Below are positions 7,639 to 62,379 of a stretch of 64,000 nt of DNA, one piece after another. The position numbers were made by a program, and so were the translations under genes. Under the pieces are notes generated by a model. It was not told the origin of the DNA and did no database searches. It saw only the letters and a list, made by a program, of their open reading frames with translations. The stretch spans positions 62,001 through 126,000 of the IMG/VR virus record IMGVR_UViG_3300021479_000006; one strand, 5' to 3'. This DNA is from a virus. How positions within the stretch are numbered: the first letter of the stretch is position 1; each line of letters opens with the position of its first letter.

Positions 7639-8040
7639 CTATAAAAGTCCCCATTTCTTTGCAAGTGATATAGGAACTTCTACTTTTTCATTCCAAGCAT
7701 CATTACCAGATATTGTAATTATATCCGATACATAATAACTCCATCCCTGCCATTCAACAAATCTATCCCAAGCAGAAGAATCACATAATTGCTTAAGTGT
7801 ATAAACAACTTTTTGTTCATCCTCTTGAACTGGATCGTTAAGTTTTGATGCATTAATAGTGATTGTTATATTACTATCATCTAATCCTATTAAGTCCAAA
7901 CCAAAATCATCAATTAAAACTTCCAGATTTAAATTTCCATCATCTAAACTTTCCAATAAAAATTTTCCAAATGAATTCTTTTTTATTTTTCCCGTAAATA
8001 CTTTCTCGAAAATAAAATCTTCTTTTCTATTTTCTTTCAT
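7639..8040 (-). CDS. Hypothetical protein (133 aa)
   Basis: No family recognised. It is an acidic, beta-rich-looking protein with conserved-looking WDRFVEWQGWSYYVSD near residues 93-108. It overlaps the start of its own operon partner (8027-8419) by 14 bp, and it ends 3 bp from the convergent ung stop. Confidence 0.55.
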   Translation of the reverse strand: MKENRKEDFIFEKVFTGKIKKNSFGKFLLESLDDGNLNLEVLIDDFGLDLIGLDDSNITITINASKLNDPVQEDEQKVVYTLKQLCDSSAWDRFVEWQGWSYYVSDIITISGNDAWNEKVEVPISLAKKWGLL

Positions 8041-8419
8041 TGTAATTTTTTATTAAAAGACCCATTTTATTTACTAGCCAATAAACAATATGCCCATCTG
8101 TATCTTTATTGTAACCACAAACCAAACAAAAAATGTATAAATCAATAGTATCGTCTATCGTTAGTAAAGTTTCACAAATACCTTCACATAACTCATGATA
8201 GTGAGCACTTGTATTGAATAAATCTAATTCTTCAGCTAAATTATTAATATCATCATCCGATAAACCATCGAACGGATCCATAATAGGTTCTCTTTTCATA
8301 TGGAATAGAAATCTATAACAACTCGTATCATATAATGACCATATTTTAGTACTTATTTCTTGAACCAAATAGTAAGGCCCTGCCACCTCACCGTATATTA
8401 TATAATCGTTACCAAGCAT
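8027..8419 (-). CDS. Hypothetical protein (130 aa)
   Basis: No family recognised; mostly alpha-helical and acidic, with several cysteines and a CLVCGYNKDTDGHIVYWLV segment near the C-terminus. It is the first gene of a two-gene minus-strand operon and has a good host-type promoter 20 bp upstream. Confidence 0.55.
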   Translation of the reverse strand: MLGNDYIIYGEVAGPYYLVQEISTKIWSLYDTSCYRFLFHMKREPIMDPFDGLSDDDINNLAEELDLFNTSAHYHELCEGICETLLTIDDTIDLYIFCLVCGYNKDTDGHIVYWLVNKMGLLIKNYNERK

Positions 8420-8439
8420 ACTTCAATTTTGTTTATATA

Positions 8440-8447
8440 CAAAGATA
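8440..8447 (-). promoter_or_regulatory. Bacteroidota-type -7 promoter element
   Basis: Read on the minus strand the sequence is TATCTTTG, matching the Bacteroidota housekeeping -7 consensus TAnnTTTG. It is placed 20 bp before the ATG of the gene starting at 8419. A TTG-containing -33 region is not well defined. Confidence 0.6.
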
Positions 8448-8654
8448 GCAAAATTTTTTACAACATAAAAAAATTGATAAAATACAAATTAGTTATATTT
8501 GAAAAGCACATAAAGTTTTGTTAAACTTTCTGACAAAAATATTACCTTGTTACATTAAATACAAAAAAAAATTTAATAAAAACTTCATATAAAATTTGAT
8601 TTGTTGTCAGATTTTAAATTCCTTTGTATCACGAAAAAATTAAAGATTAATAGA

Positions 8655-9155
8655 ATGCTTAAATCGAATATAACTTTTAATGAAAACAATGATAAACAAC
8701 AAATTTCGATAAATGATGCTCTGATTTATTGGGATCCGATACAAGAAACTTTCTTAAGTATTATTAGTGCAAAAGAACTTTCTCATAAAAAAGCTACCGA
8801 GCATTTTAATATTAACAGTGATACATTTGTTGATTTTTTAGAACAGTTATCCGAGAAATATGATTGGTTTGATTACAGAATGTCTCCACATATAATAGAA
8901 TTTATTACAGTCCTTATCGAGGATACTTTTTGTGAAACTTCTGAAGATACTGAAGACCAATACAATTGTTGGTATATTGATCTTGAACAAAATATTAGAA
9001 ATACATATAATATAGAACTTGTTGATTTGTTAGAAAGAGTTCGATACAGAATAAATGTTGAACATTTTTTTGAAAGACAAAAAACACCGGATCAGACTGT
9101 ATATTTAATTGGTAGTTATTATCTGGAAGAAATAGAAGAGTTACAAAAGAAATAA
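8655..9155 (+). CDS. Hypothetical protein (166 aa)
   Basis: No family recognised. The frame is open from a TTG at 8601, but the ATG at 8655 (MLKSNITFNENN) gives a better start. It is acidic, with helices around FNINSDTFVDFLEQLSEKYDW. The 235-bp stretch before it holds the divergent minus promoter and an AT-rich region with no further visible gene. Confidence 0.5.
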   Translation: MLKSNITFNENNDKQQISINDALIYWDPIQETFLSIISAKELSHKKATEHFNINSDTFVDFLEQLSEKYDWFDYRMSPHIIEFITVLIEDTFCETSEDTEDQYNCWYIDLEQNIRNTYNIELVDLLERVRYRINVEHFFERQKTPDQTVYLIGSYYLEEIEELQKK

Positions 9156-9185
9156 TATTTTTGAAAACAAAACGTGAGTTAACTT

Positions 9186-9262
9186 ATATAACTACTGGTG
9201 TTAGAAGCCAGAATTCCGATTAAGGATGTAATCAGAAAAGGAAGCAATTGCTTCCTTTTCTA
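9186..9262 (+). ncRNA. Candidate small RNA with its own promoter box and terminator
   Basis: A TATATAA box at 9186-9192 is followed by about 45 nt without an ORF and then a strong terminator hairpin (AAAAGGAAGC / GCTTCCTTTT, 9236-9259, T-rich tail). The segment lies between two genes on the same strand. It may simply be the terminator of the preceding gene, but the promoter-like box just upstream fits a short independent transcript. Confidence 0.3.
9236..9262 (+). terminator. Rho-independent terminator
   Basis: Ten-bp stem AAAAGGAAGC / GCTTCCTTTT with an AATT loop and a following T-rich tail; it ends transcription ahead of the helicase gene. Confidence 0.85.
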
Positions 9263-9348
9263 TTTTTAAATAATTTTTTACTTTCTGAAAACCTAAATAC
9301 ATTTTTCATCTATAACTTTTACCTAACTATACAATATAGGTTCAAAAT

Positions 9349-10704
9349 ATGGAAATATCAGTAACACTTGAAAAAGCTTTCTTTAAATTTATTCTAGATC
9401 ATCCTTCTTATTATTTCAGAGTTGATGTTGCAAATTTTAATAATAAACAAATAGGATTCGTCTATCAAGTAATACAAACCTATTATAACGCCTGTAAAAA
9501 TGATCCCCATGTACCAAAGCCACGTAAGATTGTTGAACTGGTTCGTATGTATGATCCTGAGAATCGTGTCACAGATGATGTAATAAAATCACTTTTAACA
9601 TTTGACCTTTCACAATTTATACAAAATGAAACCGATGACTGGTTAGAGACTCAATTAAAATCATGGTGTACAATACACAATTTCACATCAAGATCTGTTC
9701 AGGTAATCGAGAAAGTAAGAAGTCTTAGCAGTGATACAATGTCCTGGGGAGATATACAAAAAGTAATTGATGAAGTTAAAGAACTTGTTATAGATCCTAC
9801 AATCACTACTTTCAATGATGATAATTTAGGACTCGATTTTGACAATCCTGAGGATCACTTTCAAAATGAAGAATTTAATAAAATTAAAACAGGATGGGAT
9901 TCTTTAAATGAGCAACTCAATGGTGGTTGGAAAAGAAAAACAATGACTGTTCTTGCCGGACCATCAAACGTTGGTAAATCTCAATGGTTGTGTAATATAG
10001 GGGCCAATTGTGCTGATATGGGATACAATGTTCTTTATGTAACCTTGGAGATGTCCGAAACTGATGTATTAGCAAGGGTTGGTTCTAAAAGATTAAGAAT
10101 ACCTATAGATGATTATGCTACAGCAAGCAAGGATCAATCAGCTATGAAAGAAAAAATCCTTGCACTTAAAAAACGTGGAGCAAAAGGACTTAATAATTTA
10201 TACGGAGATAAAATAGGAAAATTTCTTGTTAGAGAGTTTGCTACTGGATCAGCAAGAATCTCAGACATCGATCAGTACATAAAAGGTCTCCAAGATAAAA
10301 AAGGTATAAAAATCGATGTTATCCTTGTCGATTATCTTACAATTATGTGCCCTAATAAAGCAGATGAGAATTTATACATCAAAGGTAAACAACTATCTGA
10401 AGGTTTAAGAGCAATGGCTAAAAAGTATGAAGCTGCTGTAATCACTGCTGTACAAGTTGGTAAAGAAGCATGGAATACAAATGATATGGATCTGGCTGAT
10501 GTATCAGAATCAAAAGCAATTGTTGAAACTTGCGACTTACTTTATGGTATTATTCAAAATGGTAAAATGAAACGTGATAAGAAATATCAATTAAAGCTTC
10601 TAAAAATTAGAGCAGGGGCCTTCAAATGGGAGCGAACAAGTTTTGATTTTGATTCGGTTTATCTTGATATTATCAACGATGTTAAAATTTTAGAACAAAA
10701 ATAA
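9349..10704 (+). CDS. 41: Replicative DNA helicase, DnaB/T4 gp41 family
   Basis: Hexameric 5'-3' helicase of the replication fork. The N-terminal domain (about 1-150) is followed by a RecA-like core with Walker A GPSNVGKS (204-211), a YVTLEMSE motif and Walker B VILVDYLTIM. The 451-aa length is near T4 gp41 (475). It has no visible Shine-Dalgarno. No primase domain is present, so a separate gp61-like primase would be expected elsewhere. A gene of unknown function with a very acidic N-terminus follows 50 bp downstream. Confidence 0.9.
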   Translation: MEISVTLEKAFFKFILDHPSYYFRVDVANFNNKQIGFVYQVIQTYYNACKNDPHVPKPRKIVELVRMYDPENRVTDDVIKSLLTFDLSQFIQNETDDWLETQLKSWCTIHNFTSRSVQVIEKVRSLSSDTMSWGDIQKVIDEVKELVIDPTITTFNDDNLGLDFDNPEDHFQNEEFNKIKTGWDSLNEQLNGGWKRKTMTVLAGPSNVGKSQWLCNIGANCADMGYNVLYVTLEMSETDVLARVGSKRLRIPIDDYATASKDQSAMKEKILALKKRGAKGLNNLYGDKIGKFLVREFATGSARISDIDQYIKGLQDKKGIKIDVILVDYLTIMCPNKADENLYIKGKQLSEGLRAMAKKYEAAVITAVQVGKEAWNTNDMDLADVSESKAIVETCDLLYGIIQNGKMKRDKKYQLKLLKIRAGAFKWERTSFDFDSVYLDIINDVKILEQK

Positions 10705-30383: not shown

Positions 30384-31976
30384 ATGGCTAATAACAAAAT
30401 ACAAACTAAATTATTTGATCTGTATAAGGAGTCAAAGTTTAGTGCTGATGTCGATAGTATTATCAAACATCACTTAAATTGTTTTCACAACAACTCACAG
30501 ATAGCTGTTTATAATAGCCTTAAGGAGAACCTTAAAAATTATATTTATAGTAAACCTGTAGTTTCTATACTTGAAAAAATTCAAGATGAAATAAATCAAG
30601 ATGTTGTATATTATGAACTTGAAGATTTGTTGAGATTTCTTGAAGATCAAAATCAAGGTATGGTCTTTCGTCCAGTGATGAAAGTAGTTTTGGATGTTAT
30701 GAATGAAGTAAACATGGGTGCTCGTCATAAAAAAATAATGAATGAATTGAAATTGTATGATTGGGTAAGACCTATCGCAGAATTCATGTTTAGATATACA
30801 CAAAACCCACTTGATAAACAAAACATTTCTAGTCGTGGTGGTAGAGCTGAACAAGTTTATACTTTTGTAGAAAGTGTTGTTGATGGTCAATTAGTATACA
30901 TTAAAAATAAATGGTTCATGATTAAAGAAGATACAATATTTCCTGTTGTTCTTTTTGATTATGTAAAAGATATTGAAAGACTTCGTAAATTAAATATTAT
31001 ACAAACTTGTCTGGAGCTTACTCAATTTGATAATGATATTATGAGTTTCCGTATTAATGAAGACCTAACAATAGGTGTATCTATAAAAACAGGTGAACTT
31101 TTATTAAATGGTGAAAAAGCTGAAAGATCTACAACTCTTGAAAGTATATTTAATTCACCACAAATACCTGTTTTAAAAAGAGATTTCTTCTTAATCATTC
31201 AAGAATGTATAGGTAACAAAAGTCAATTCAAAAATTTAGATATAGCACTTCACATAAGTAATGTTGTAAATCCTAATATTGAAACATATGCTTTTAAATA
31301 TGAAGGTAAATGTTATGCTTATATTTTAGATGGCTTCTCCGGTAGTACATTCTTCCAATATGAATCCGTTTCCACTCTTATAAGAGAAGTTGATATAAAA
31401 CTCGGTTTTGATTTATCGGAATTTTTTAAAGAACAACTAGATGCTCAAAAACAATTGACTAATAAAATTCAAGATACTCAAAAATTAATCTATCAACAAA
31501 TAGATGAAATTAATGAGAATATTGAGAAACTTGAATCTAGTTCTTTATTCGAAAGTAATGAACAAATTAAAAAAGCTCATGCAATGCTTAAAGGTGAAAG
31601 AACAGCCTTAATAGACAAACTTAAAAAGATAGGTGATAAAGCATCTTCAGAAACAACTATTATTAACTCTGAGGCTGATTTACAACCTTATATCGATGCC
31701 CCAACAGATACAATAAGTGTAGAGGCCGAAATAAATGAGCCTTCTGTTATGGAAAGTTTGAATGAAAGTTTAGTAGCTGAGAATAGTGTTGGTAAATATA
31801 CTATCTATGGTAAGGACTTTGAAATATATGGTATTAAAGAAAATAAAGAGGATGAAGATTTCTTTACATTTGATGTATACTGTGAAGGTAAATTATTAAA
31901 TAAAGGATTTACTTTCTATTCTATACCTTCATCTGATGTTGTAAGAAACATAGCAATAGAAACATATGTAATATAA
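30384..31976 (+). CDS. Large unknown protein, paralogue of the gene at 22138
   Basis: 530 aa, built as the 22138 product plus an extra C-terminal domain of about 110 residues (from NSEADLQPYIDAPTD), which ends in a small beta-rich module (YTIYGKDFEIYG). It shares YYELEDLLRFLE, LLNGEKAERSTTLESIF and the coiled coil IDEINENIEKLE with the paralogue. A TATATAA box (30347-30353) lies 37 bp upstream. A virion or assembly role is inferred from its place between the gp15-like gene and the head genes. Confidence 0.7.
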   Translation: MANNKIQTKLFDLYKESKFSADVDSIIKHHLNCFHNNSQIAVYNSLKENLKNYIYSKPVVSILEKIQDEINQDVVYYELEDLLRFLEDQNQGMVFRPVMKVVLDVMNEVNMGARHKKIMNELKLYDWVRPIAEFMFRYTQNPLDKQNISSRGGRAEQVYTFVESVVDGQLVYIKNKWFMIKEDTIFPVVLFDYVKDIERLRKLNIIQTCLELTQFDNDIMSFRINEDLTIGVSIKTGELLLNGEKAERSTTLESIFNSPQIPVLKRDFFLIIQECIGNKSQFKNLDIALHISNVVNPNIETYAFKYEGKCYAYILDGFSGSTFFQYESVSTLIREVDIKLGFDLSEFFKEQLDAQKQLTNKIQDTQKLIYQQIDEINENIEKLESSSLFESNEQIKKAHAMLKGERTALIDKLKKIGDKASSETTIINSEADLQPYIDAPTDTISVEAEINEPSVMESLNESLVAENSVGKYTIYGKDFEIYGIKENKEDEDFFTFDVYCEGKLLNKGFTFYSIPSSDVVRNIAIETYVI

Positions 31977-34169: not shown

Positions 34170-35924
34170 ATGTCAAGTTACACACCTCAATCAGGAGCTT
34201 ATGGTCAGTTAGGATATAATAAAAGCATGTTTTCAAGACTCTTGAGAAGAATAGGAAACTTCAATATGGAGTATCAAGATATGATCTTTAGAAATCAAGT
34301 TGGTGTTGGTATAAATCAAGAAGCTACACCAACAGCTCTGAAAAATTCTGTATCAAAGGGTAGTGATATGTATGATGTTTTTTCCAGAAATGCTGTTAAT
34401 AAAATAATGACAGAAAAATCTATCTCTTATCTTGATGGTAGCTATTTGGAAAAAAGAAGAATCTTGAGAGAGTATAGTCTTAAAGATGAAATACGTGATA
34501 TGATTACACAAGTTGCTGATGAAGCTGTCATGTATAAAGAAGGGGAACCATTCTGTTCACCTAAGAGATTATCTGACTCTTTCAGAAAGGACTTGAAAGA
34601 AAAATATGATCAAAATTTCAAATACATATTTAATAGATTAGGATTCAATGGTGGTATTAGAGCATGGTATCTTTTTAGAAAATTATTAGTAGATGGTTAT
34701 TTAGCTTTTGAGATAGTATATGATGATAAACAAAAGAATATTATTGATATCATCGATATGGATGCTGCTACACTTGTTCCGGCGGTAGATCCAGTAACTA
34801 AAGATTATGTTTGGATTCAATTTCCTGAAAATCCTATTTACAGAAGAGTATTCTTAGACTCTCAAATAATATACATTTCATATTCTAATAATATGGAATA
34901 TATGGAGACTAGTTATGTTGAGAATTTAATACGTCCTTATAACCAATTAAAATTACTAGAGCAAACAAAAATAATGTTTAACATTATTCATGCCTCTATG
35001 CACAAACAATTTTCTATACCAGTTCACGGATTACCCAAAGCTATTGCTGAACAACAAGTACAACAACTTATAGCTGATTACAAAGACGAAGTTATTTTTG
35101 ATGAAAGAATGGGTCAGGTATATATTAATGGTTCTCCACATATACCATATTCCAAAGAATACTGGTTCCCTGTAGGTGAAGCTGGTAAGCCAGAGTTTCA
35201 ACTTGTGGAACAAAATGGTATCAATCTTAATGAGAATGATATGCTTAAATGGTTTCATGATATTTTGAAAAGAGCTAGTAAATTACCTTTCTCAAGATTT
35301 GATCATACAGCTGGTGGTGGAGCATTATTTGCTTTTGATAATATTCAAAGTGTTACTAGAGATGAAATAACTTTCTTTACTTTTATACAAAGACTAAGAT
35401 ATATTTACAAGGAAATTGTTATTAAACCTTGGAAAATTCAAATGGTTTTAGATTTCCCTGAATTACTTGACGATGATAATTTTCTTACTAGTATAGATGT
35501 AGAATTTAAAGGTGTGAATCATTTCTATGAAATGATAGAACTTGATAATCTTGTTAAAAAAGTCGGTATATTAGCTACACTTGTTAATTCTGTCCAAGAA
35601 GAAGACGGTAAACCATTCTTCAGTGTATATTTACTTGTTGAGGATATTTTAAAATTTAGTCCTGAATTTTTAGAAAGAAACGAACGATATAAAAAAGAAA
35701 AAAGAGGTACTGGTCAAGCTGTACCAGCTGAAGGTGGAAGTTCTAGTAGCCCAACACCTGATTTTAGTGGGGGAAGTAGTAGTCCTGAAAATGAATCTCC
35801 AGCACCCGAAGAAACACCACCATCTGAAACGCCACCTCCTACTGAAGCACCAACAACTCCAGAGCCTGGCGGTAATGAAACACCACCTCCAACTGGTGGA
35901 GAAGCTGAAACATTTACATTTTAA
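34170..35924 (+). CDS. 20: Portal vertex protein, T4 gp20-like
   Basis: 584 aa (T4 gp20 is 524). Portal features include YSLKDEIRDMITQVADEAVM, GIRAWYLFRKLLVDGYLAFE, DMDAATLVPAVDPVTKDYVW and IIYISYSNN. It forms the dodecameric ring through which DNA is packaged. The final 75 residues are a Pro/Glu/Thr/Ser-rich tail (ETPPSETPPPTEAPTTPEPG) absent from T4. Two TATATAA-type boxes lie at about 34093 and 34141. It ends at a strong terminator, so the protease gene is transcribed from its own promoter. Confidence 0.9.
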   Translation: MSSYTPQSGAYGQLGYNKSMFSRLLRRIGNFNMEYQDMIFRNQVGVGINQEATPTALKNSVSKGSDMYDVFSRNAVNKIMTEKSISYLDGSYLEKRRILREYSLKDEIRDMITQVADEAVMYKEGEPFCSPKRLSDSFRKDLKEKYDQNFKYIFNRLGFNGGIRAWYLFRKLLVDGYLAFEIVYDDKQKNIIDIIDMDAATLVPAVDPVTKDYVWIQFPENPIYRRVFLDSQIIYISYSNNMEYMETSYVENLIRPYNQLKLLEQTKIMFNIIHASMHKQFSIPVHGLPKAIAEQQVQQLIADYKDEVIFDERMGQVYINGSPHIPYSKEYWFPVGEAGKPEFQLVEQNGINLNENDMLKWFHDILKRASKLPFSRFDHTAGGGALFAFDNIQSVTRDEITFFTFIQRLRYIYKEIVIKPWKIQMVLDFPELLDDDNFLTSIDVEFKGVNHFYEMIELDNLVKKVGILATLVNSVQEEDGKPFFSVYLLVEDILKFSPEFLERNERYKKEKRGTGQAVPAEGGSSSSPTPDFSGGSSSPENESPAPEETPPSETPPPTEAPTTPEPGGNETPPPTGGEAETFTF

Positions 35925-36063: not shown

Positions 36064-38190
36064 ATGAGTATTATAAAACCAGTATTAATATTAGAACGCA
36101 CACAAGAACGCCTAAATCTTAACGAGTCTGTAAAGATGAAGAATGGGAGAAAGCAGTATATCATGGAAGGTGTGTTTACACAATTCATGCAAAGAAACAG
36201 AAATGATAGAGTTTATACTCCAGATAAATTTTTGCCACACTTAGAAGAATTGTTGGGAAGAAAACAAGAATTAGGTGTAGTATATGGTGAATTTGATCAC
36301 CCTGATGTTTTTGATACATCTTTAAGTAGAGTATCTCACGTAATTGAAAATGCTAAATATATTAAAGAACATAACCGTGTAGATGGTGCCGTAAGACTCA
36401 CTAATACTTATTGGGGTAAAGAAGCACAAGCTCTTGTTGATGATGAATTTCCTTTATTCATTTCATCTCGTGCTGCTGGTGTAACAGAATCTAACGGTGT
36501 TGTCGAAGTTAAAAAACTTTTTACTTATGATATTGTTGCTGACCCAGGTTTTAGCTCAGCAAAACTTAGTATGAAAGTTATTAATGAGTCTTGTGGATTT
36601 GATAATACACCCACTTCACCAATCAGAATTTATGATTTATCAGACACATCAAAAACTAATGAATTATTCATGGAAAATAAAAACGATTTTAAAACTCAAG
36701 CAGATCTAATGAAATTTATGGATTACTTGACTAAAGAAGTTGCTGAAGTAAAAAATGGACTTGCTAAAAAAGTTACAGAATCATCTAAAGGTGATATTAG
36801 TGCTTCAGCTGCTGATATAGAAAAAATGTCAGAATATCAAGAAGCTTTACATGAGACAATGGCTCACATTATTAAATATCTTGATTACATATCAGAAAAT
36901 ATTACAATATCTCTTAATGAAACTACAGCTCTTAATAAAAAAACTGATGCTATTGTTGAACACAATGATTACTTATCAACTGAAATAGAAAAATCTATAA
37001 ATTATGGTACTTACATAAGTGAAAAATTAAATCAATCAATTCACTTTGGAAACTACCTAGGTAATAAAGTAAATGAATCAATTCAGTTCGGTAATTATAT
37101 CGTTGAACATTTGAATAATAATATTAATTATGGTGAATACATCACTGAACATCTTAACAAATCTATTCGTTTTGGAAATTATCTTTCTGAACAATTAGAT
37201 ACTACAATTGGCTACACGGAACTTCTCGCAGAACAAGTAAATAATAGTCTTGAATATGCAGACTATATACGTGAACAAGTAAATATGAATATCAACTACA
37301 CTGAGAAAGTTGGTAAATCAATGAACAGAGTAATTGATTATGCACACTATATCAGTGAAACATTAGATACTACAATAGCATATACTGAATTGATTGGTGA
37401 AAAACTAAGTAACACTATGGATTATGCTGATTATGTTGTTGAATGTGCTGATAAAACTATGCTTTATGCTGATAAAATCAGACAAACTATAACTAAGAAT
37501 ACAGGTCTATTAACAGAATCAATAAATATACCAAGTGCCGAAGAATTCCTTGAAGAAACTGATGAGACAGATACTATAGTTGATCCAGATAAAAAAGAAG
37601 AGGAAGAAGGCGTTGATAAAATGAAAGATACTGATGAAGAAATTAAAAAAATTACTGAATCGGTTCAATTTAAAACAGGAAATATATCAAAACAAATAGA
37701 TGTGTTAATCGCTGAAGCTATGAAGACAGAAGCTTCTAAAGAGGAAGAACCTCACTTTTATCTTTTCTTAACAAAAGAAGATATTAAATCTTTTGAATCA
37801 CTATCTAATAGTGATAAGGAAACCGTGAAAATTGCTTTGAAAGAAAGTCAAGGTTATTGGATGAGATCCGATGTACTTAATATAATGCAATCTGTATTAT
37901 CTAAACCAACATCTGAAACACCTATTAACAAACTTATGAAAGCTATGCCGGATGATATTAAACCAGTTTGGGAAAGTATTACTGACAAAGAAAAATCACG
38001 TCTACTTGCAGAATCTACAATCTATGTATTGGAGACAGATGAAGAAAGAACAAATTTTTGGTCAACAAGAAAAGTTGGTGTCGTGAATGAGTCTAAGAGA
38101 CTTGTATCTCATGCTGATCTGATCATGAATGATACTCTTTCTGATAATGATGTTCAAGGTTTCATGTCAAAATTTAAAATGTTAGGATAA
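36064..38190 (+). CDS. 21: Prohead protease (gp21-like) fused to a repeat-rich scaffold
   Basis: 708 aa, against 212 for T4 gp21. Residues about 25-175 are the protease: GVFTQFMQRNRNDRVYTPDKF, catalytic His in YGEFDHPDVF (His79), catalytic Ser in ISSRAAGV (134/135), then IVADPGFSSAKL. Residues about 200-310 are helical. Residues 312-479 are twelve tandem 14-residue units. The C-terminal 230 residues are acidic and helical. In T4 the protease (gp21) and scaffold (gp22) are separate; here one polypeptide seems to carry both. Autocleavage at Leu/Ile-x-Glu type sites would release the parts. Confidence 0.88.
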   Translation: MSIIKPVLILERTQERLNLNESVKMKNGRKQYIMEGVFTQFMQRNRNDRVYTPDKFLPHLEELLGRKQELGVVYGEFDHPDVFDTSLSRVSHVIENAKYIKEHNRVDGAVRLTNTYWGKEAQALVDDEFPLFISSRAAGVTESNGVVEVKKLFTYDIVADPGFSSAKLSMKVINESCGFDNTPTSPIRIYDLSDTSKTNELFMENKNDFKTQADLMKFMDYLTKEVAEVKNGLAKKVTESSKGDISASAADIEKMSEYQEALHETMAHIIKYLDYISENITISLNETTALNKKTDAIVEHNDYLSTEIEKSINYGTYISEKLNQSIHFGNYLGNKVNESIQFGNYIVEHLNNNINYGEYITEHLNKSIRFGNYLSEQLDTTIGYTELLAEQVNNSLEYADYIREQVNMNINYTEKVGKSMNRVIDYAHYISETLDTTIAYTELIGEKLSNTMDYADYVVECADKTMLYADKIRQTITKNTGLLTESINIPSAEEFLEETDETDTIVDPDKKEEEEGVDKMKDTDEEIKKITESVQFKTGNISKQIDVLIAEAMKTEASKEEEPHFYLFLTKEDIKSFESLSNSDKETVKIALKESQGYWMRSDVLNIMQSVLSKPTSETPINKLMKAMPDDIKPVWESITDKEKSRLLAESTIYVLETDEERTNFWSTRKVGVVNESKRLVSHADLIMNDTLSDNDVQGFMSKFKMLG
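36997..37500 (+). repeat. Twelve tandem 14-residue (42-bp) repeats in the scaffold
   Basis: Units read INYGTYISEKLNQS, IHFGNYLGNKVNES, IQFGNYIVEHLNNN, INYGEYITEHLNKS and so on. The consensus is a hydrophobic residue, x, aromatic, G/A, x, Y, I/L, x, E, x, L/V, N/D, x, S/T. Fourteen residues equal two heptads, so a long coiled-coil rod is expected. The nucleotide sequences have drifted, so it is an old protein-level repeat. Confidence 0.88.
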
Positions 38191-38267: not shown

Positions 38268-40052
38268 ATGAATCAAAACATTCAACTTGACAGTGCAAAA
38301 TCTGTCAAAAAATGGTCAAAAATTCTCGAGTCAATCGGAATTAACGCTACACCTAGAAATGCTGAAAAAATTGAGTGGATGTCTGAGTATGCAGAATATC
38401 ACAACATCAATGCAAAAAAAGGTTTAGTACAAGAAAACACAGGTTATTCTAACTTAGGTAACTTAACTGGTATGGGTGCAGTAGTATCACCTGGTGTTAA
38501 CGTTACACCTGGTCAAACTGGTGCTTACACTAGCTTAGGTCAAGCAACTGGTGCTGGTTCTGGTGACTTCGGTCAACAATTGTTACCAATCGCTATGAAA
38601 ATCGCTGGTCAAACTATCGGTCTTGATCTTGTTGGTGTAAAACCATCACCTGGTCCAGTTATCGATCTTATGTATGTAGACTTTAAATATGATGATGGTC
38701 CTACAAATGATCAAAACTATGTTCCAGTAGTTTTCAAAATCGCTACAACTGCTGCTGATACTAATAGTGTTAATCTTAACGCTATGATAGCTGAATTAAA
38801 TGCTATACTTACAGCTAATTTAATACTACAAACTTCTGGTGGTTTGTCTAGTAGAGTTTGGGTAACATTACCTGCTAACCCAACAGGAAATCAAGGTGGT
38901 AACAGAGCTGGTGGTGCTTTATCTTCAGTACTTTCTGAACCTGCTACTAAAACTGGTGTTCTTGAATTCCTTGGATTCTCAAGAATTGATGGTTTACCAA
39001 TGTTCCGTGCTTACAGAACAACGAATGCTTCGTCAATGGGACAATTCTATTTCGATATCACAGCTAATACTTTCGGTACAACTGAAACTGTTAAAAATGC
39101 TTTCGAAACTGGATCGTTCGCTTCTACGTCAGGTTCTGCTGATGGTCTAATAGGTGGTTTTGCAACAAATACTGTCTTGATAGAACTTATCTCAGCTCTT
39201 GAAGATCACATTCCTGGATTCGTATCTAACTGGAATAAAGATTATGGTATGCCACGTGAACAAGATGATACTACTTATCCAGGTATTATCGCTCCAAGTG
39301 TATCTGTAAAAAGAATAACAGTTGGTTCTATCGAAGTAACTTCAGCTCTTAAAAGAACTGAAATTGAAGATATCAAAGCTCAAACTGGAATGGATATCGT
39401 TCAAAAACTAGAAAGCGTACTTGTTAATGAGTTGTCACAAACAATTTCTAAACAAATCGTTACTAAAGTATACGCAATGGGTAATCTTAACAGATCAACT
39501 CTTCCAACTAACACTAGTGGGTACACAATGTTCGACTTCGACGTTGATAGTTACTTCGGTGGTGGTACTGCTCCAGCAGGAGAGACTACTCAGTCTGCAC
39601 AAAGAAAGCTTATCACTAAAATTGATGCTGCTTCTAACTACATTGCAACTGAAGGTCGTGTTGGACCAGCTACTTTTGCTGTAACTAACGGTAAACTTGC
39701 TGCTGCTCTTAAAACTGCTGCTGGTTTCATTATCAACCCTATTGAGTCTAAACTTAACGCACCAGGACAATTATATCCTCTAGGTACAATTGGTGGATTA
39801 ACTATTTATGTTGACCCATACCAAAAATACACTAATGATGTAATTTTACTTGGACGTAAAAACAATCCTGATCAACCAGGTATTATTTTCATACCTTACT
39901 TGATGGCTCAATCAGTAAACTTGATTTCTGAAGCTACTTTTGGACCACGCATGATGCTCCGTTCAAGATACGCTATCGGTGAACTTGGATGGTATCCACA
40001 AAAACAGTATATGACTGTTAAAGTTAACGATACAAAAGGTTACTTAGTGTAG
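38268..40052 (+). CDS. 23: Major capsid protein, T4 gp23-like
   Basis: 594 aa (T4 gp23 is 521). HK97-fold T4 capsid features include LLPIAMKIAGQTIGLDLVGV, PGPVIDLMYVDFKY, SVSVKRITVGSIEVTSALKR, EIEDIKAQTGMDIVQKLESV and FIPYLMAQSVNLISEATFGP near the end. The first about 56 residues are helical and charged and end GLVQE before NTGYSNLGNLTGMG, matching the T4 pattern where gp21 removes an N-terminal propeptide after Glu65. Codon use is richer in G/C-ending codons than its neighbours, as expected for a very highly expressed gene. It is a single-gene unit with box and terminator. Confidence 0.95.
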   Translation: MNQNIQLDSAKSVKKWSKILESIGINATPRNAEKIEWMSEYAEYHNINAKKGLVQENTGYSNLGNLTGMGAVVSPGVNVTPGQTGAYTSLGQATGAGSGDFGQQLLPIAMKIAGQTIGLDLVGVKPSPGPVIDLMYVDFKYDDGPTNDQNYVPVVFKIATTAADTNSVNLNAMIAELNAILTANLILQTSGGLSSRVWVTLPANPTGNQGGNRAGGALSSVLSEPATKTGVLEFLGFSRIDGLPMFRAYRTTNASSMGQFYFDITANTFGTTETVKNAFETGSFASTSGSADGLIGGFATNTVLIELISALEDHIPGFVSNWNKDYGMPREQDDTTYPGIIAPSVSVKRITVGSIEVTSALKRTEIEDIKAQTGMDIVQKLESVLVNELSQTISKQIVTKVYAMGNLNRSTLPTNTSGYTMFDFDVDSYFGGGTAPAGETTQSAQRKLITKIDAASNYIATEGRVGPATFAVTNGKLAAALKTAAGFIINPIESKLNAPGQLYPLGTIGGLTIYVDPYQKYTNDVILLGRKNNPDQPGIIFIPYLMAQSVNLISEATFGPRMMLRSRYAIGELGWYPQKQYMTVKVNDTKGYLV

Positions 40053-41079: not shown

Positions 41080-41286
41080 TCATTTTATCAAAATATTCTT
41101 TAAATAATATTCACGCATTTTATCGAATCCATCAATTAAAGTATTCCAGGAATGAATAAGTTCAAAGTTTATTTTCTCATTTACTATAGAAGGAATATAC
41201 TTAAAATCTATATTAGACCAATTATCACCTAAGAAGTATTGAAAGCATTCTTCATCAAACTTATTTCTTACAAACTGATATCTCAT
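41080..41286 (-). CDS. Hypothetical protein (68 aa)
   Basis: No family recognised. It starts MRYQFVRNKFDEECFQYFLG and overlaps the stop of the upstream fusion gene by 4 bp (ATGA-type overlap), so it is translationally coupled to it. Confidence 0.5.
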   Translation of the reverse strand: MRYQFVRNKFDEECFQYFLGDNWSNIDFKYIPSIVNEKINFELIHSWNTLIDGFDKMREYYLKNILIK

Positions 41287-42566
41287 ACTTTAATCTTTTG
41301 ATCTTTGATTTTACTATAGATGACTTCCATTATCATACCAATCTGAGCATGATCTACGATATCATCTTTGAATAGGTCTTTTAGTTGTTTAAATTCAACG
41401 TAAGTACGTTCTGTTTCTTCGGTCACACCAAACACCTTTCCTTTGACAGACTTCTTTATATCAGCTAAATCATCATCAGATAGCTCAAGACCAAATAGAG
41501 CGTTCTTATGTATTGATAAAGTAGAAACTAACTGTCTTCTTCCAAAGAATTCTAAATCATATGGTTCAACAGTTAAACCAGTTTCTTCTTTTATCTCTTT
41601 AACTATTATTTCCTGAGGATCTTTACTTGAGAAACTAGAACCACCTGGATTTTCGTAAACATAAATATCTCCATTATTTACTGGAGATCTGAATTCCTTA
41701 ACAAGAACAATATCACTGTTCCACATATCTTCTTGATCAATATGATACATTACTACTGAAGATAAATTGAATCTGGATAGAATTATTTCATTATCTTTAT
41801 ACCGGTCCTCAGCTTTTATCCATACTTTAACCCACATAGACCATAAGAATAGAATATTTTTATCTGGCCCAACATAATACTTCCATAATACATTTGCATC
41901 ATGAAGTTCATCACCGGCTTTCTCTTGATTTTTATACCATTCAATAAATGTGTCAGAATTCCAAATATCCAAGGGTACAAATCTCTCAGCACCTGTTCTT
42001 TTAAATGTATATTTATCTTTCTTTAAAAGTTCTTTATATTTATCAATAACATATTGAAGAGTATTTTCGAGAGTTTTAAAGGCTGGTATATTGTATTTCT
42101 CAGCATAAAATTCTTGATACCTTACTTTCTCAGCATCTTTAGGACATCCAAGTACAAGTTTTTCTGGAGCCTGACCTTTCCAATAACCCCATTCATCGTT
42201 GGTAGTGAATCCTGGAAGTTTAACTAAATCTCTTGGTATCCAAAAAAGGATTACATCAGCTATTCTCAAACCTTCTTCTTCCCATTCAATCTGATCCTCA
42301 TATTCATTTTTAAATTCACCACTTGAATCTTCCGGAATAAGAACAGCACCAGTAAATCCTTTTTTCTTAAGATATTCTACAGCTTCAGATCTCCAGGATT
42401 TAGGTGTTTTTTTATTTTCTTCAGATCTATAAGTAGGACCAGCAAGAAATACAGTGAATTCAGTTGTTTTAGGTAATTCCTGGTTACTGTAATATACTTT
42501 TAATTTTCCAGAACTATTATCTTCATTAATACTTTGATAAGTATCAGATTTTTTGAAATACTTCAT
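41283..42566 (-). CDS. Nucleoside 2-deoxyribosyltransferase-like / NUDIX fusion
   Basis: 427 aa. Residues about 37-170 match the deoxyribosyltransferase-like 2 family: FTVFLAGPTYRSEE, SWRSEAVEYLKKKGF, VLIPEDSS, EWEEEGLRIADVILFWIPRD and PGFTTNDEWGYW. Residues about 290-400 hold a NUDIX fold with GGSSFSSKDPQEIIVKEIKE followed by ETGL; the box has Lys in place of the first Glu and of Arg, so activity may be altered. The N-terminus MKYFKKSDTYQSINED resembles the genome's leader motif. A salvage or NAD-related nucleotide role is likely; the pairing of the domains suggests cleavage of a modified nucleotide. Confidence 0.8.
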   Translation of the reverse strand: MKYFKKSDTYQSINEDNSSGKLKVYYSNQELPKTTEFTVFLAGPTYRSEENKKTPKSWRSEAVEYLKKKGFTGAVLIPEDSSGEFKNEYEDQIEWEEEGLRIADVILFWIPRDLVKLPGFTTNDEWGYWKGQAPEKLVLGCPKDAEKVRYQEFYAEKYNIPAFKTLENTLQYVIDKYKELLKKDKYTFKRTGAERFVPLDIWNSDTFIEWYKNQEKAGDELHDANVLWKYYVGPDKNILFLWSMWVKVWIKAEDRYKDNEIILSRFNLSSVVMYHIDQEDMWNSDIVLVKEFRSPVNNGDIYVYENPGGSSFSSKDPQEIIVKEIKEETGLTVEPYDLEFFGRRQLVSTLSIHKNALFGLELSDDDLADIKKSVKGKVFGVTEETERTYVEFKQLKDLFKDDIVDHAQIGMIMEVIYSKIKDQKIKV

Positions 42567-43872: not shown

Positions 43873-43943
43873 GGTGTCATTAGTTTAGTGGTAGAATTTA
43901 GGTTTGTGGAGCCTAAGACCAGGGTTCGATTCCCGATGACACC
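43873..43943 (+). tRNA. tRNA-His (GTG anticodon)
   Basis: Acceptor GTGTCAT / ATGACAC with the extra G-1 paired to C73, the hallmark of tRNA-His. Anticodon arm TAGGT-TTGTGGA-GCCTA (GTG), T loop TTCGATT. First tRNA after the attenuator-like terminator. Confidence 0.9.
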
Positions 43944-43949
43944 CAAATA

Positions 43950-44026
43950 CAGCAGCTGGCATTGGCGAGCCGAGCATTCTCCAAAAGTGTGTCGAAAGAC
44001 TTGTAGATCCGACTTCTACCTGCTGT
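43950..44026 (+). tRNA. tRNA with CCA anticodon (Trp), unusual long variable arm
   Basis: Acceptor ACAGCAG / CTGCTGT, anticodon arm GCATT-CTCCAAA-AGTGT (anticodon CCA, two wobble pairs), T arm GTAGA-TCCGACT-TCTAC, discriminator G. Between anticodon and T arms lies GTCGAAAGACTT, which can form a 3-bp mini-stem with a GAAA loop, as in class II tRNAs (Ser, Leu, Tyr). A Trp anticodon on a class II-like body is unusual; G73 is compatible with both Trp and Ser. The D stem is short. Confidence 0.65.
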
Positions 44027-44034
44027 GCAAAAAT

Positions 44035-44107
44035 ATTCCTGTAGTTCAATTGGATAGAACAAATTACTACGGATAATTAGATAAAGGTTCGAGTCCTTTC
44101 GGGAATA
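44035..44107 (+). tRNA. tRNA-Arg (ACG anticodon)
   Basis: Acceptor ATTCCTG / CGGGAAT, D arm GTTC / GAAC, anticodon arm AATTA-CTACGGA-TAATT (ACG), T arm AAAGG-TTCGAGT-CCTTT, discriminator A. A34 would need host TadA deamination to inosine to read CGT/CGC/CGA. Confidence 0.88.
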
Positions 44108-44116
44108 CAAAAATAT

Positions 44117-44190
44117 TATCTTGTAGCTCAATTGAATAGAGCGATTGCCTTCTAAGCAGTAGGTTGCAGGTTTGAATCCTGCCAAGGTAA
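44117..44190 (+). tRNA. tRNA-Arg (TCT anticodon)
   Basis: Acceptor TATCTTG / CAAGGTA, D arm GCTC / GAGC, anticodon arm ATTGC-CTTCTAA-GCAGT (TCT), T arm GCAGG-TTTGAAT-CCTGC. Reads AGA/AGG, the common Arg codons of this AT-rich genome. Confidence 0.92.
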
Positions 44191-44195
44191 CAAAT

Positions 44196-44268
44196 TCCGG
44201 AGTAGCTCAATTGATGGAGCATCTGACTTGTAATCAGAAGGTTGAGGGTTTGATCCCCTTCTCCGGAT
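44196..44268 (+). tRNA. tRNA-Thr (TGT anticodon)
   Basis: Acceptor TCCGGAG / CTCCGGA, D arm GCTC / GAGC, anticodon arm TCTGA-CTTGTAA-TCAGA (TGT), T arm GAGGG / CCCTT, discriminator T. It ends 15 bp before the arginyl-tRNA synthetase start. Confidence 0.92.
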
Positions 44269-44283
44269 CAAACGTATATAACT

Positions 44284-45459
44284 ATGAAAATAAATATCAA
44301 CATATTAAAAGAAATTCCTAAGAACTTTGGTTCTGGATTATGTGTATATGGTAAACCTAGTGAAGAAGTTTCTTCATGGATAAACTATCACAATTTTGAA
44401 ACCGAGTTATCTGGAAGCTTCACTAATATAATAATACCAGAAGATTTAGATATTAATACAGCTTTTTACATTAACGAGCAGTATGAGTATATTGATGGGA
44501 TTAGTCCAAATCTCAATAAGTATACTCATTTAGGACATATATCTAACTTTGTATTAGCTAAAACTTTTCAAAAACTTGGTATAGGAAAACAATTTATCGC
44601 TAACCTCGGTGATACTTTGGAGGGTAATGTTAAAAAAGAAGATGCTTTAAAAGTTTATCAGGAAATATGTAACACTTTCGATTACAAAATTGATAAAATA
44701 TTCTTTGCTTCTGAATTAGAATATACTGGTGAACTTTTAGAAAACGGACAAGGTGAATATGAAGGCACTAAAATATTTAACATAAATGATAAGAAATTGG
44801 TCGGAATTAAAAGTAATGGGGCTACATCATATTTTTATCAGGATGTAGCCCTGGCCTCTATACTAAACAGTAAAACTTTATACATGACAGGTTTGGAACA
44901 AGGTGAGCATTTTAAATCTTTGAAAATATTATTTCCAAATGTTGAACATCTACCTCTTGGTTTAGTTATGGTAAAAGGCGAGAAAATGTCTTCTCGTTTA
45001 GGTAATGTGATCTTATTTTCTGAGATCATAGATATGTTCAAAGAGAAATTTGGTGATAATGATAAGCTTGTATGGAATGTATTAGCAGGTTATATTTTAA
45101 AATCTATTCCTGGAACCAATAAAAACATTGATTTGGATCAATTGGATAATGTTAAGATGTCAGCCGGTTTATATTTGAGCTATACGTTGGCTAAATTAAA
45201 AAGTGCTGGATTAGTTGTAAATGATATATCTGATTTCAATTCAGTTTTCTTAAAAATAAAAACATTGAAAGCAAAGAATAGTTTATCACCAAATATATTG
45301 TTTGAAGCTTTAGTGGAACAGGCTAAAAAGATAAGTGGTTTGTATGAGTTATATCAAATAAAAGGAAACGACGATAATCAAAAAATGTTCAACCCCTTGG
45401 CTGAGGACTTATTATTTGGTATGAAACTATTAGGTCTTTATGATATAGACAAGGTGTAA
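44284..45459 (+). CDS. argS: Arginyl-tRNA synthetase (compact, class I)
   Basis: 391 aa. The ArgRS-specific HIGH region reads SPNLNKYTHLGH (residues 74-85). Further blocks are KSNGATSYFYQDVALA (about 176-191), GLEQGEHFKSLKILF and the KMSKS loop EKMSSRLGN (about 233-241). The bacterial enzyme is about 550-580 aa; this copy has a very short N-terminus before the catalytic core, so the Add1 D-loop-binding domain is missing, and only about 130 residues follow the KMSSR loop as a reduced anticodon-binding domain. It sits 15 bp after five tRNAs, two of them tRNA-Arg. Phage ArgRS genes are rare in my knowledge. Confidence 0.88.
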   Translation: MKININILKEIPKNFGSGLCVYGKPSEEVSSWINYHNFETELSGSFTNIIIPEDLDINTAFYINEQYEYIDGISPNLNKYTHLGHISNFVLAKTFQKLGIGKQFIANLGDTLEGNVKKEDALKVYQEICNTFDYKIDKIFFASELEYTGELLENGQGEYEGTKIFNINDKKLVGIKSNGATSYFYQDVALASILNSKTLYMTGLEQGEHFKSLKILFPNVEHLPLGLVMVKGEKMSSRLGNVILFSEIIDMFKEKFGDNDKLVWNVLAGYILKSIPGTNKNIDLDQLDNVKMSAGLYLSYTLAKLKSAGLVVNDISDFNSVFLKIKTLKAKNSLSPNILFEALVEQAKKISGLYELYQIKGNDDNQKMFNPLAEDLLFGMKLLGLYDIDKV

Positions 45460-61920: not shown

Positions 61921-62379
61921 TTGGATATAGTAGTCCCAACCCTCTTTATCATCGCTGGCTTCTTTCTTAGTAATAATTACATTCTCTTTTGATTGTTCTT
62001 TGTAAATATTTTCCCAGAACATATCCATAATAGTTGTTCTCTGGCCTTTTTTATGAATAGGATATTTTCTTGATACAATACCTTTTGATTTTTTACTTTC
62101 TACAATACTAAGACATTCTTTAAGCATTGATAGATACAAACCATGTCTTTTATATTTTTCATTAATATCGACTTCCTCAACCTCCCAGAAATTTTCTGTT
62201 ATATCATGCTCCAGTTTTATATAAGATATTACTTCATTCTTTTTATTTGTTATAGTTAAACGGATTTCGTGTCTAGTTGATATAAAATGATAATTGTATA
62301 CATTATCAAATTTATCTTTAATTGTTCCGGTCTTCTCATCCTTGTCTATAAAGGCCTCAAATGTTTTTACATATTCCAT
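61912..62379 (-). CDS. GNAT-like acetyltransferase with capsid-targeting-like N-terminus
   Basis: 155 aa. The start MEYVKTFEAFIDKDEKTG is the shared leader-like motif. Residues about 60-110 look like the GNAT core: EVEEVDINEKYKRHGLYLSM with the acetyl-CoA-binding R/K-xx-G-x turn. Catalytic residues are not identifiable. It is divergent from the ART-like gene, with only 18 bp between the start codons. Confidence 0.55.
   Translation of the reverse strand: MEYVKTFEAFIDKDEKTGTIKDKFDNVYNYHFISTRHEIRLTITNKKNEVISYIKLEHDITENFWEVEEVDINEKYKRHGLYLSMLKECLSIVESKKSKGIVSRKYPIHKKGQRTTIMDMFWENIYKEQSKENVIITKKEASDDKEGWDYYIQLK

Follow-up and report, generated by a model that had tools for sequence, protein, structure and literature searches.

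In phage T4 the prohead protease and the scaffold are encoded by separate genes, 21 and 22, which together with genes 67 and 68 fill the interval between the portal and the major capsid protein, whereas in the virus studied here a single core gene occupies that interval. The question that this locus raises is how one polypeptide might supply both protease and scaffold. The window that we analysed is a stretch of 64,000 nucleotides (positions 62,001 to 126,000) of IMG/VR record IMGVR_UViG_3300021479_000006, a genome fragment of 166.9 kb. Using a combination of profile searches, structure prediction and comparison with relatives, we find that the gene joins a gp21-type protease to an array of 14-residue units, most of which carry the cleavage motif of such a protease. 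We put at roughly two in three the probability that its product serves a huge, Mahaphage-like phage as a single-chain prohead core protein, a self-cleaving protease–scaffold whose helical rod would be a ladder of cleavage sites.

Architecture of the fusion gene

Table 1. Features of the proposed protease–scaffold fusion gene and its flanking genes in the window (a slash marks a predicted cut)
Feature	Position	Strand	Basis
Portal protein (gp20-like), 139 nt upstream of the fusion gene	34170..35924	+	Portal_T4, E 5e-57
Protease–scaffold fusion gene	36064..38190	+	ORF, ATG start, 708 aa
gp21-type prohead protease domain, aa 1–175	36064..36588	+	phrog_207, Foldseek 5jbl, T4 gp21 alignment
Predicted protease/scaffold separation site INE175/S176	36580..36591	+	equivalent Glu in relatives; cleavage predicted
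Met203 codon, candidate internal start of a scaffold-only product	36670..36672	+	conserved Met, upstream context
Degenerate first unit EHNDYLSTEIEKSI, aa 299–312	36958..36999	+	aligns with first unit of relatives
Twelve 14-residue units, aa 313–480	37000..37503	+	[ILV]xE at unit positions 6–8 in 9/12
Acidic, probably disordered stretch, aa 481–540	37504..37683	+	composition; pLDDT 27–48
C-terminal region, aa 541–708: conserved small helical domain, invariant FW motif	37684..38187	+	alignment A2
Major capsid protein (gp23-like), 77 nt downstream of the fusion gene	38268..40052	+	Gp23, E 7e-31

The N-terminal part of the protein is a gp21-type protease, in agreement with an earlier sequence-only reading of the 708-residue product. 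Residues 7–272 match the head maturation protease family phrog_207 in a profile search (E 3e-29), and T4 gp21 (5jbl) is the best Foldseek match of the predicted structure (E 1e-7; TM normalised to target 0.62–0.71), the remaining Foldseek matches being dismissed as noise; Pfam Peptidase_S77 scores 16.2 bits, under its 27-bit cut-off. His79, Ser135 and Asp156 line up with positions conserved in T4 gp21 and other phage proteases and are invariant among the 42 proteins of alignment A1. In the alignment, the INE/S at the end of the domain is equivalent to ITE/S in T4 gp21, and an xNE or equivalent Glu stands at the protease/scaffold junction in T4 gp21, Lak, PAU, Kaldavass and the relatives of the window's protein. 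The motif [LIV]xE is also moderately enriched inside the protease domain itself (9 versus 3.5 expected).

The full-length structural model is poor (mean pLDDT 58) and comprises the protease, long helices at residues 196–478 and a small C-terminal helical domain. What had been described as an acidic helical tail resolves into two parts: the acidic stretch stands, as a low-confidence segment, while a merely helical tail does not, since a conserved and better-predicted helical domain follows at residues ~560–670 (pLDDT ~59–83 across residues 561–670). The C-terminal region is alignable also in a 462-kb phage and in Lak-C1 (alignment A2).

The gene order is portal, fusion, capsid. The capsid gene follows 22–107 nt after the fusion gene in 74 loci, and the interval between portal and fusion is gene-free in the window, in L006, in a 735-kb phage (L084) and in the 462-kb phage (L086); in the other relatives inspected, genes intervene there, mostly on the opposite strand.

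A protease motif in register with the repeats

The twelve 14-residue units of the sequence-only reading are real, although their placement at 36997–37500 was one codon off and one further, degenerate unit precedes them. Identity at lag 14 within the array is 0.33 versus 0.068 after shuffling (z 13; 0 of 2000 shuffles reach the value), lag 28 is as strong, and the remaining lags tested lie near or under background. Tandem Repeats Finder detects no DNA-level tandem array over the repeats, so that the repeat exists at the protein level only and its units must be old.

What the earlier reading overlooked is that the repeats contain the cleavage motif of a gp21-type protease. T4 gp21 cleaves after L/I-X-E, and gp22, gp67 and gp68 are cut down to fragments (PMC9026906; PMC5694885). 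For consensus and motif counts we used 471 in-register units from 40 non-redundant proteins of relatives, whose consensus is A-Y-S-E-Y-I-A-E-N-L-D-K-N-I; [LIVM]xE occupies unit positions 6–8 in 441 of them, and the unit Glu is most often followed by Asn. Tyr5 and Glu8 are the most conserved residues (94% each); the hydrophobic residues at 2, 10 and 14 come behind. The window belongs to a diverged lineage which, at the level of sequence, is a natural test of which unit residues stay: Glu8 is kept in 9 of its 12 units (the other three have no Glu there), while the consensus at the polar or small positions 1, 3, 4, 7, 9, 11, 12 and 13 survives in 0–4 of the 12, and Ala7, the free X of L/I-X-E, in one. 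Across residues 299–480, [LIV]xE occurs 10 times versus 3.9 in shuffles (P 0.001).

The capsid protein points to the same specificity. Its predicted propeptide site, VQE56/N57, falls in alignment columns that are 98% (E56) and 97% (N57) conserved, and [LIVM]xEN is found near residues 56–57 in 57 of 58 sequences. The capsid processing site of the relatives is thus the motif of the repeats, including the Asn at P1′ that most repeats carry. Motif density has parallels in separate scaffolds: T4 gp22 has 16 [LI]xE sites versus 5.8 expected, and the Kaldavass gene in the scaffold position has 20 versus 6.6. This suggests that dense cut sites are typical of such scaffolds and that they are periodic here.

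The fusion in huge phages

The best annotated relatives belong to the Mahaphage clade (635–735 kb): they are the largest four phages described by Al-Shayeb et al. 2020 (PMC7162821), and identity to the proteins of three of them is 40–42% over almost the full length. In 80 IMG/VR loci that a scan yielded (L002–L081), and in six further loci (L082–L087), protease and scaffold part are fused in every complete homologue. Unit number varies: most relatives have 10–13 units, by a score threshold that picks up only 7 of the window's 12 diverged units, and phages in the clade of LR756500 (462 kb) mostly have 5–9 recognisable, less regular ones. Lak-C1 (540 kb) lacks the repeats: its fusion protein, encoded at 7983–9737 of locus L087, joins the protease to an acidic region of ~200 residues, which stands in place of the helical repeats, and to the alignable C-terminal region. 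Homologous heads may thus be built with a disordered middle.

Search for a separate scaffold

The family of gp22, phrog_237, has no match in the 166.9-kb record of the window or in six huge-phage records of 462–735 kb, Lak-C1 included; the positive controls T4 and HTVC008M match at E <1e-89, but the profile misses divergent scaffolds (Kaldavass and PAU are negative), which makes the absence of gp22 indicative only. No separate gp22-like gene, which the earlier reading had named as grounds for abandoning its proposal, was thus found by this profile in the record or in the complete relatives. Homology of the C-terminal scaffold part to T4-type gp22 was rejected (hhalign probability <1%), as was homology to the Kaldavass scaffold-position gene, for which none was found. 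Of the proposed union of protease and scaffold in one polypeptide, the protease half stands; the scaffold half, having no detectable gp22 homology, is argued from position and architecture, together with motif content and the lack of a gp22 match in complete relatives.

A candidate internal start

A T4 prohead contains ~576 copies of gp22 versus 100 of gp21 (PMC5694885). Given this excess, a fused gene would gain from a scaffold-only product, as with UL26.5 of herpesviruses (PMC12474303), and such a product may arise from an internal Met that is conserved at the junction. All 41 clade-1 and related proteins examined, and likewise the 30 complete second-clade proteins inspected, have a Met where protease and scaffold join, amid a poorly conserved linker; in the window it is shifted by one codon. 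The upstream context of Met203 ranks at the 97th percentile of internal ATGs under a model trained on true starts, a rank among related sequences rather than a probability.

In most relatives, excess synonymous conservation appears ~8–11 codons upstream of the junction Met, where GAG is used in 35 of 38 although GAA is usual; the window does not have this synonymous-constraint element. The conserved coding element under strong synonymous constraint, TCYGATGAGTCAAAA, lies upstream of the junction Met in L082, L084, L085 and most relatives, and all 23 same-strand copies of its core with ATNs in the loci retrieved fall within fusion genes. A programmed frameshift at TCYGATGAGTCAAAA was rejected, as the alternative-frame stops rely on non-conserved codons (ATA or ATT, AAT or AAC). 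The strongest synonymous-constraint signal, at residues 588–597, seems to stem from alignment columns in which amino acids are mixed.

Discussion

Starting from the protease domain, the repeats, the register and conservation of their motif, the gene order and the fusion across relatives, we infer a maturation pathway in which cleavage, scaffold role, peptide exit and internal start would fit together as follows. The gp21-type serine protease would enter the prohead as the N-terminal head of the scaffold, in which 14-residue units would form a long amphipathic helix, with the acidic linker behind it and then the C-terminal helical domain, which probably makes a specific contact, perhaps with the capsid protein or the portal. 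At maturation the protease would cleave [ILVM]-x-E sites: a cut at INE175/S would free the protease, a cut at VQE56/N would process the capsid protein, and cuts at most repeats would turn the rod into peptides of ~14 residues, small enough to exit the shell. Initiation at Met203 may add scaffold without protease. A more far-reaching version, that in the largest known phages a periodic substrate ladder, with a site for the molecule's own protease every 14 residues, arose by unit-by-unit duplication, was selected for cutting and is combined with an internal start that adjusts the ratio of protease to scaffold in the manner of herpesviruses, is tentative, and we rate it somewhat below even odds.

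The repeats could instead be a purely structural coiled-coil rod, in which case [ILV]xE would simply accompany a conserved helical Glu, and maturation would cleave the protein at only a few positions beyond the repeats. Along the units, the dominant period of hydrophobicity is exactly 3.5 residues, the repeats give a weak profile match to the designed coiled coil 8qkd, and the repeat region of the relative L018, modelled alone, is predicted as a single unbroken helix (pLDDT 89; pTM 0.33). Lone helices commonly receive high prediction confidence, which carries no information on the oligomer. A helical rod is plausible, and of the coiled-coil rod proposed earlier the long helix stands as a prediction while the coiled-coil oligomer is conjecture. 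Tyr5 is conserved as highly as Glu8, the three-residue motif is weak, helix packing alone could conserve [ILV]AE, and the predicted sites sit in a helix that would need to open for cleavage. However, the diverged units of the window keep Glu8 and lose the other polar consensus residues, the unit motif coincides with the processing motif of the capsid protein and with the consensus known for gp21, and T4 gp22 is likewise rich in it, which makes a purely structural array rather unlikely. The main scaffold could also be another gene, such as the 530-aa ORF at 30384–31976, the C-terminal part of the fusion serving only to target the protease into the prohead. The protease of SPN3US is targeted by a C-terminal propeptide (PMC7411985), and the ORF is conserved in four phages of 635–735 kb, has weak coiled-coil matches and carries LNE/S and VAE/N motifs. 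Yet ~500 residues far exceed a targeting tail, the slot of gp22 directly before the capsid gene is filled by the fusion protein in every locus checked, and the 462-kb relative carries the fusion but nothing that matches the ORF; we consider a separate main scaffold unlikely.

Least probable, and in our view very unlikely, is that the array acts as a molecular ruler in which unit number sets rod length and hence prohead size, as the sequence-only reading had proposed. Unit number does shift in whole 14-residue steps, a helix would measure ~2.1 nm per unit, and the 462-kb clade has fewer recognisable units than the 11–12 of the 635–735 kb phages. Against this, proteins 88–93% identical in the repeat region differ by one or two units, four complete genomes of 635–642 kb and 735 kb span only 11–12 units, Lak heads are built with none, and clade and size are confounded. 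We likewise rejected a correlation of unit number with genome size, for which complete genomes are too few and which Lak contradicts.

The reading that we favour, a single-chain core cut along its own rod, would place the protein among known protease–scaffold fusions, which as such are represented by P2 gpO, herpesvirus UL26 and small actinophages. With T4 gp21 and gp22 it shares the gp21 fold, the aligned catalytic residues, the order portal–protease–scaffold–capsid and a scaffold rich in L/I-x-E; in T4, however, the sites of gp22 are irregular and have no 14-residue repeat. P2 gpO also has an N-terminal protease and a C-terminal scaffold on one chain, but is shorter, with domains described to residue 284 and no such repeats reported (PMC7552001). 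In the herpesvirus UL26/UL26.5 system, an N-terminal maturation protease, distantly related to gp21 (PMC5694885), is fused to a scaffold with a self-separation site between them, and UL26.5 is the scaffold-only product of an overlapping gene that starts inside UL26 (PMC12474303), whereas here the internal start is a prediction; UL26 is cut at two sites (R and M) and not along a ladder. In small actinobacteriophages, siphoviruses with unusually small genomes, protease and scaffold functions are fused as well, but so is the capsid protein (PMC7302621). The Lak phage protease (MK250029) has the same protease, an INE/S junction, an acidic middle and a C-terminal region with the FW motif, and differs in the long acidic region that stands in place of the 14-residue repeats. 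Among the open-licence papers searched, none was found to describe a fusion of the gp21 type in which cut sites form a periodic ladder.

If correct, our reading offers a concrete and testable one-gene core for capsids that house genomes of 600–735 kb, with predicted cut sites every 14 residues. On the T4 side, the gene would be a phage equivalent of the protease–scaffold gene of herpesviruses, and its sequence signature could help to spot protease–scaffold fusions that are annotated merely as proteases.

Other features of the window

The two cleavage-like motifs of the 530-aa protein encoded at 30384–31976 lie towards its C-terminus, making it a possible further substrate of the prohead protease. 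At 43873–45459, four tRNA genes (His, Arg-acg, Arg-tct and Thr) stand directly upstream of a 391-aa ORF that carries the class I synthetase signature GLVMVKGEKMSSRLGNV and appears ArgRS-like by eye, its Pfam class I synthetase match falling under the cut-off. On the minus strand, at 41283–42566, a 427-aa protein pairs a NUDIX-like domain with one resembling nucleoside 2-deoxyribosyltransferase.
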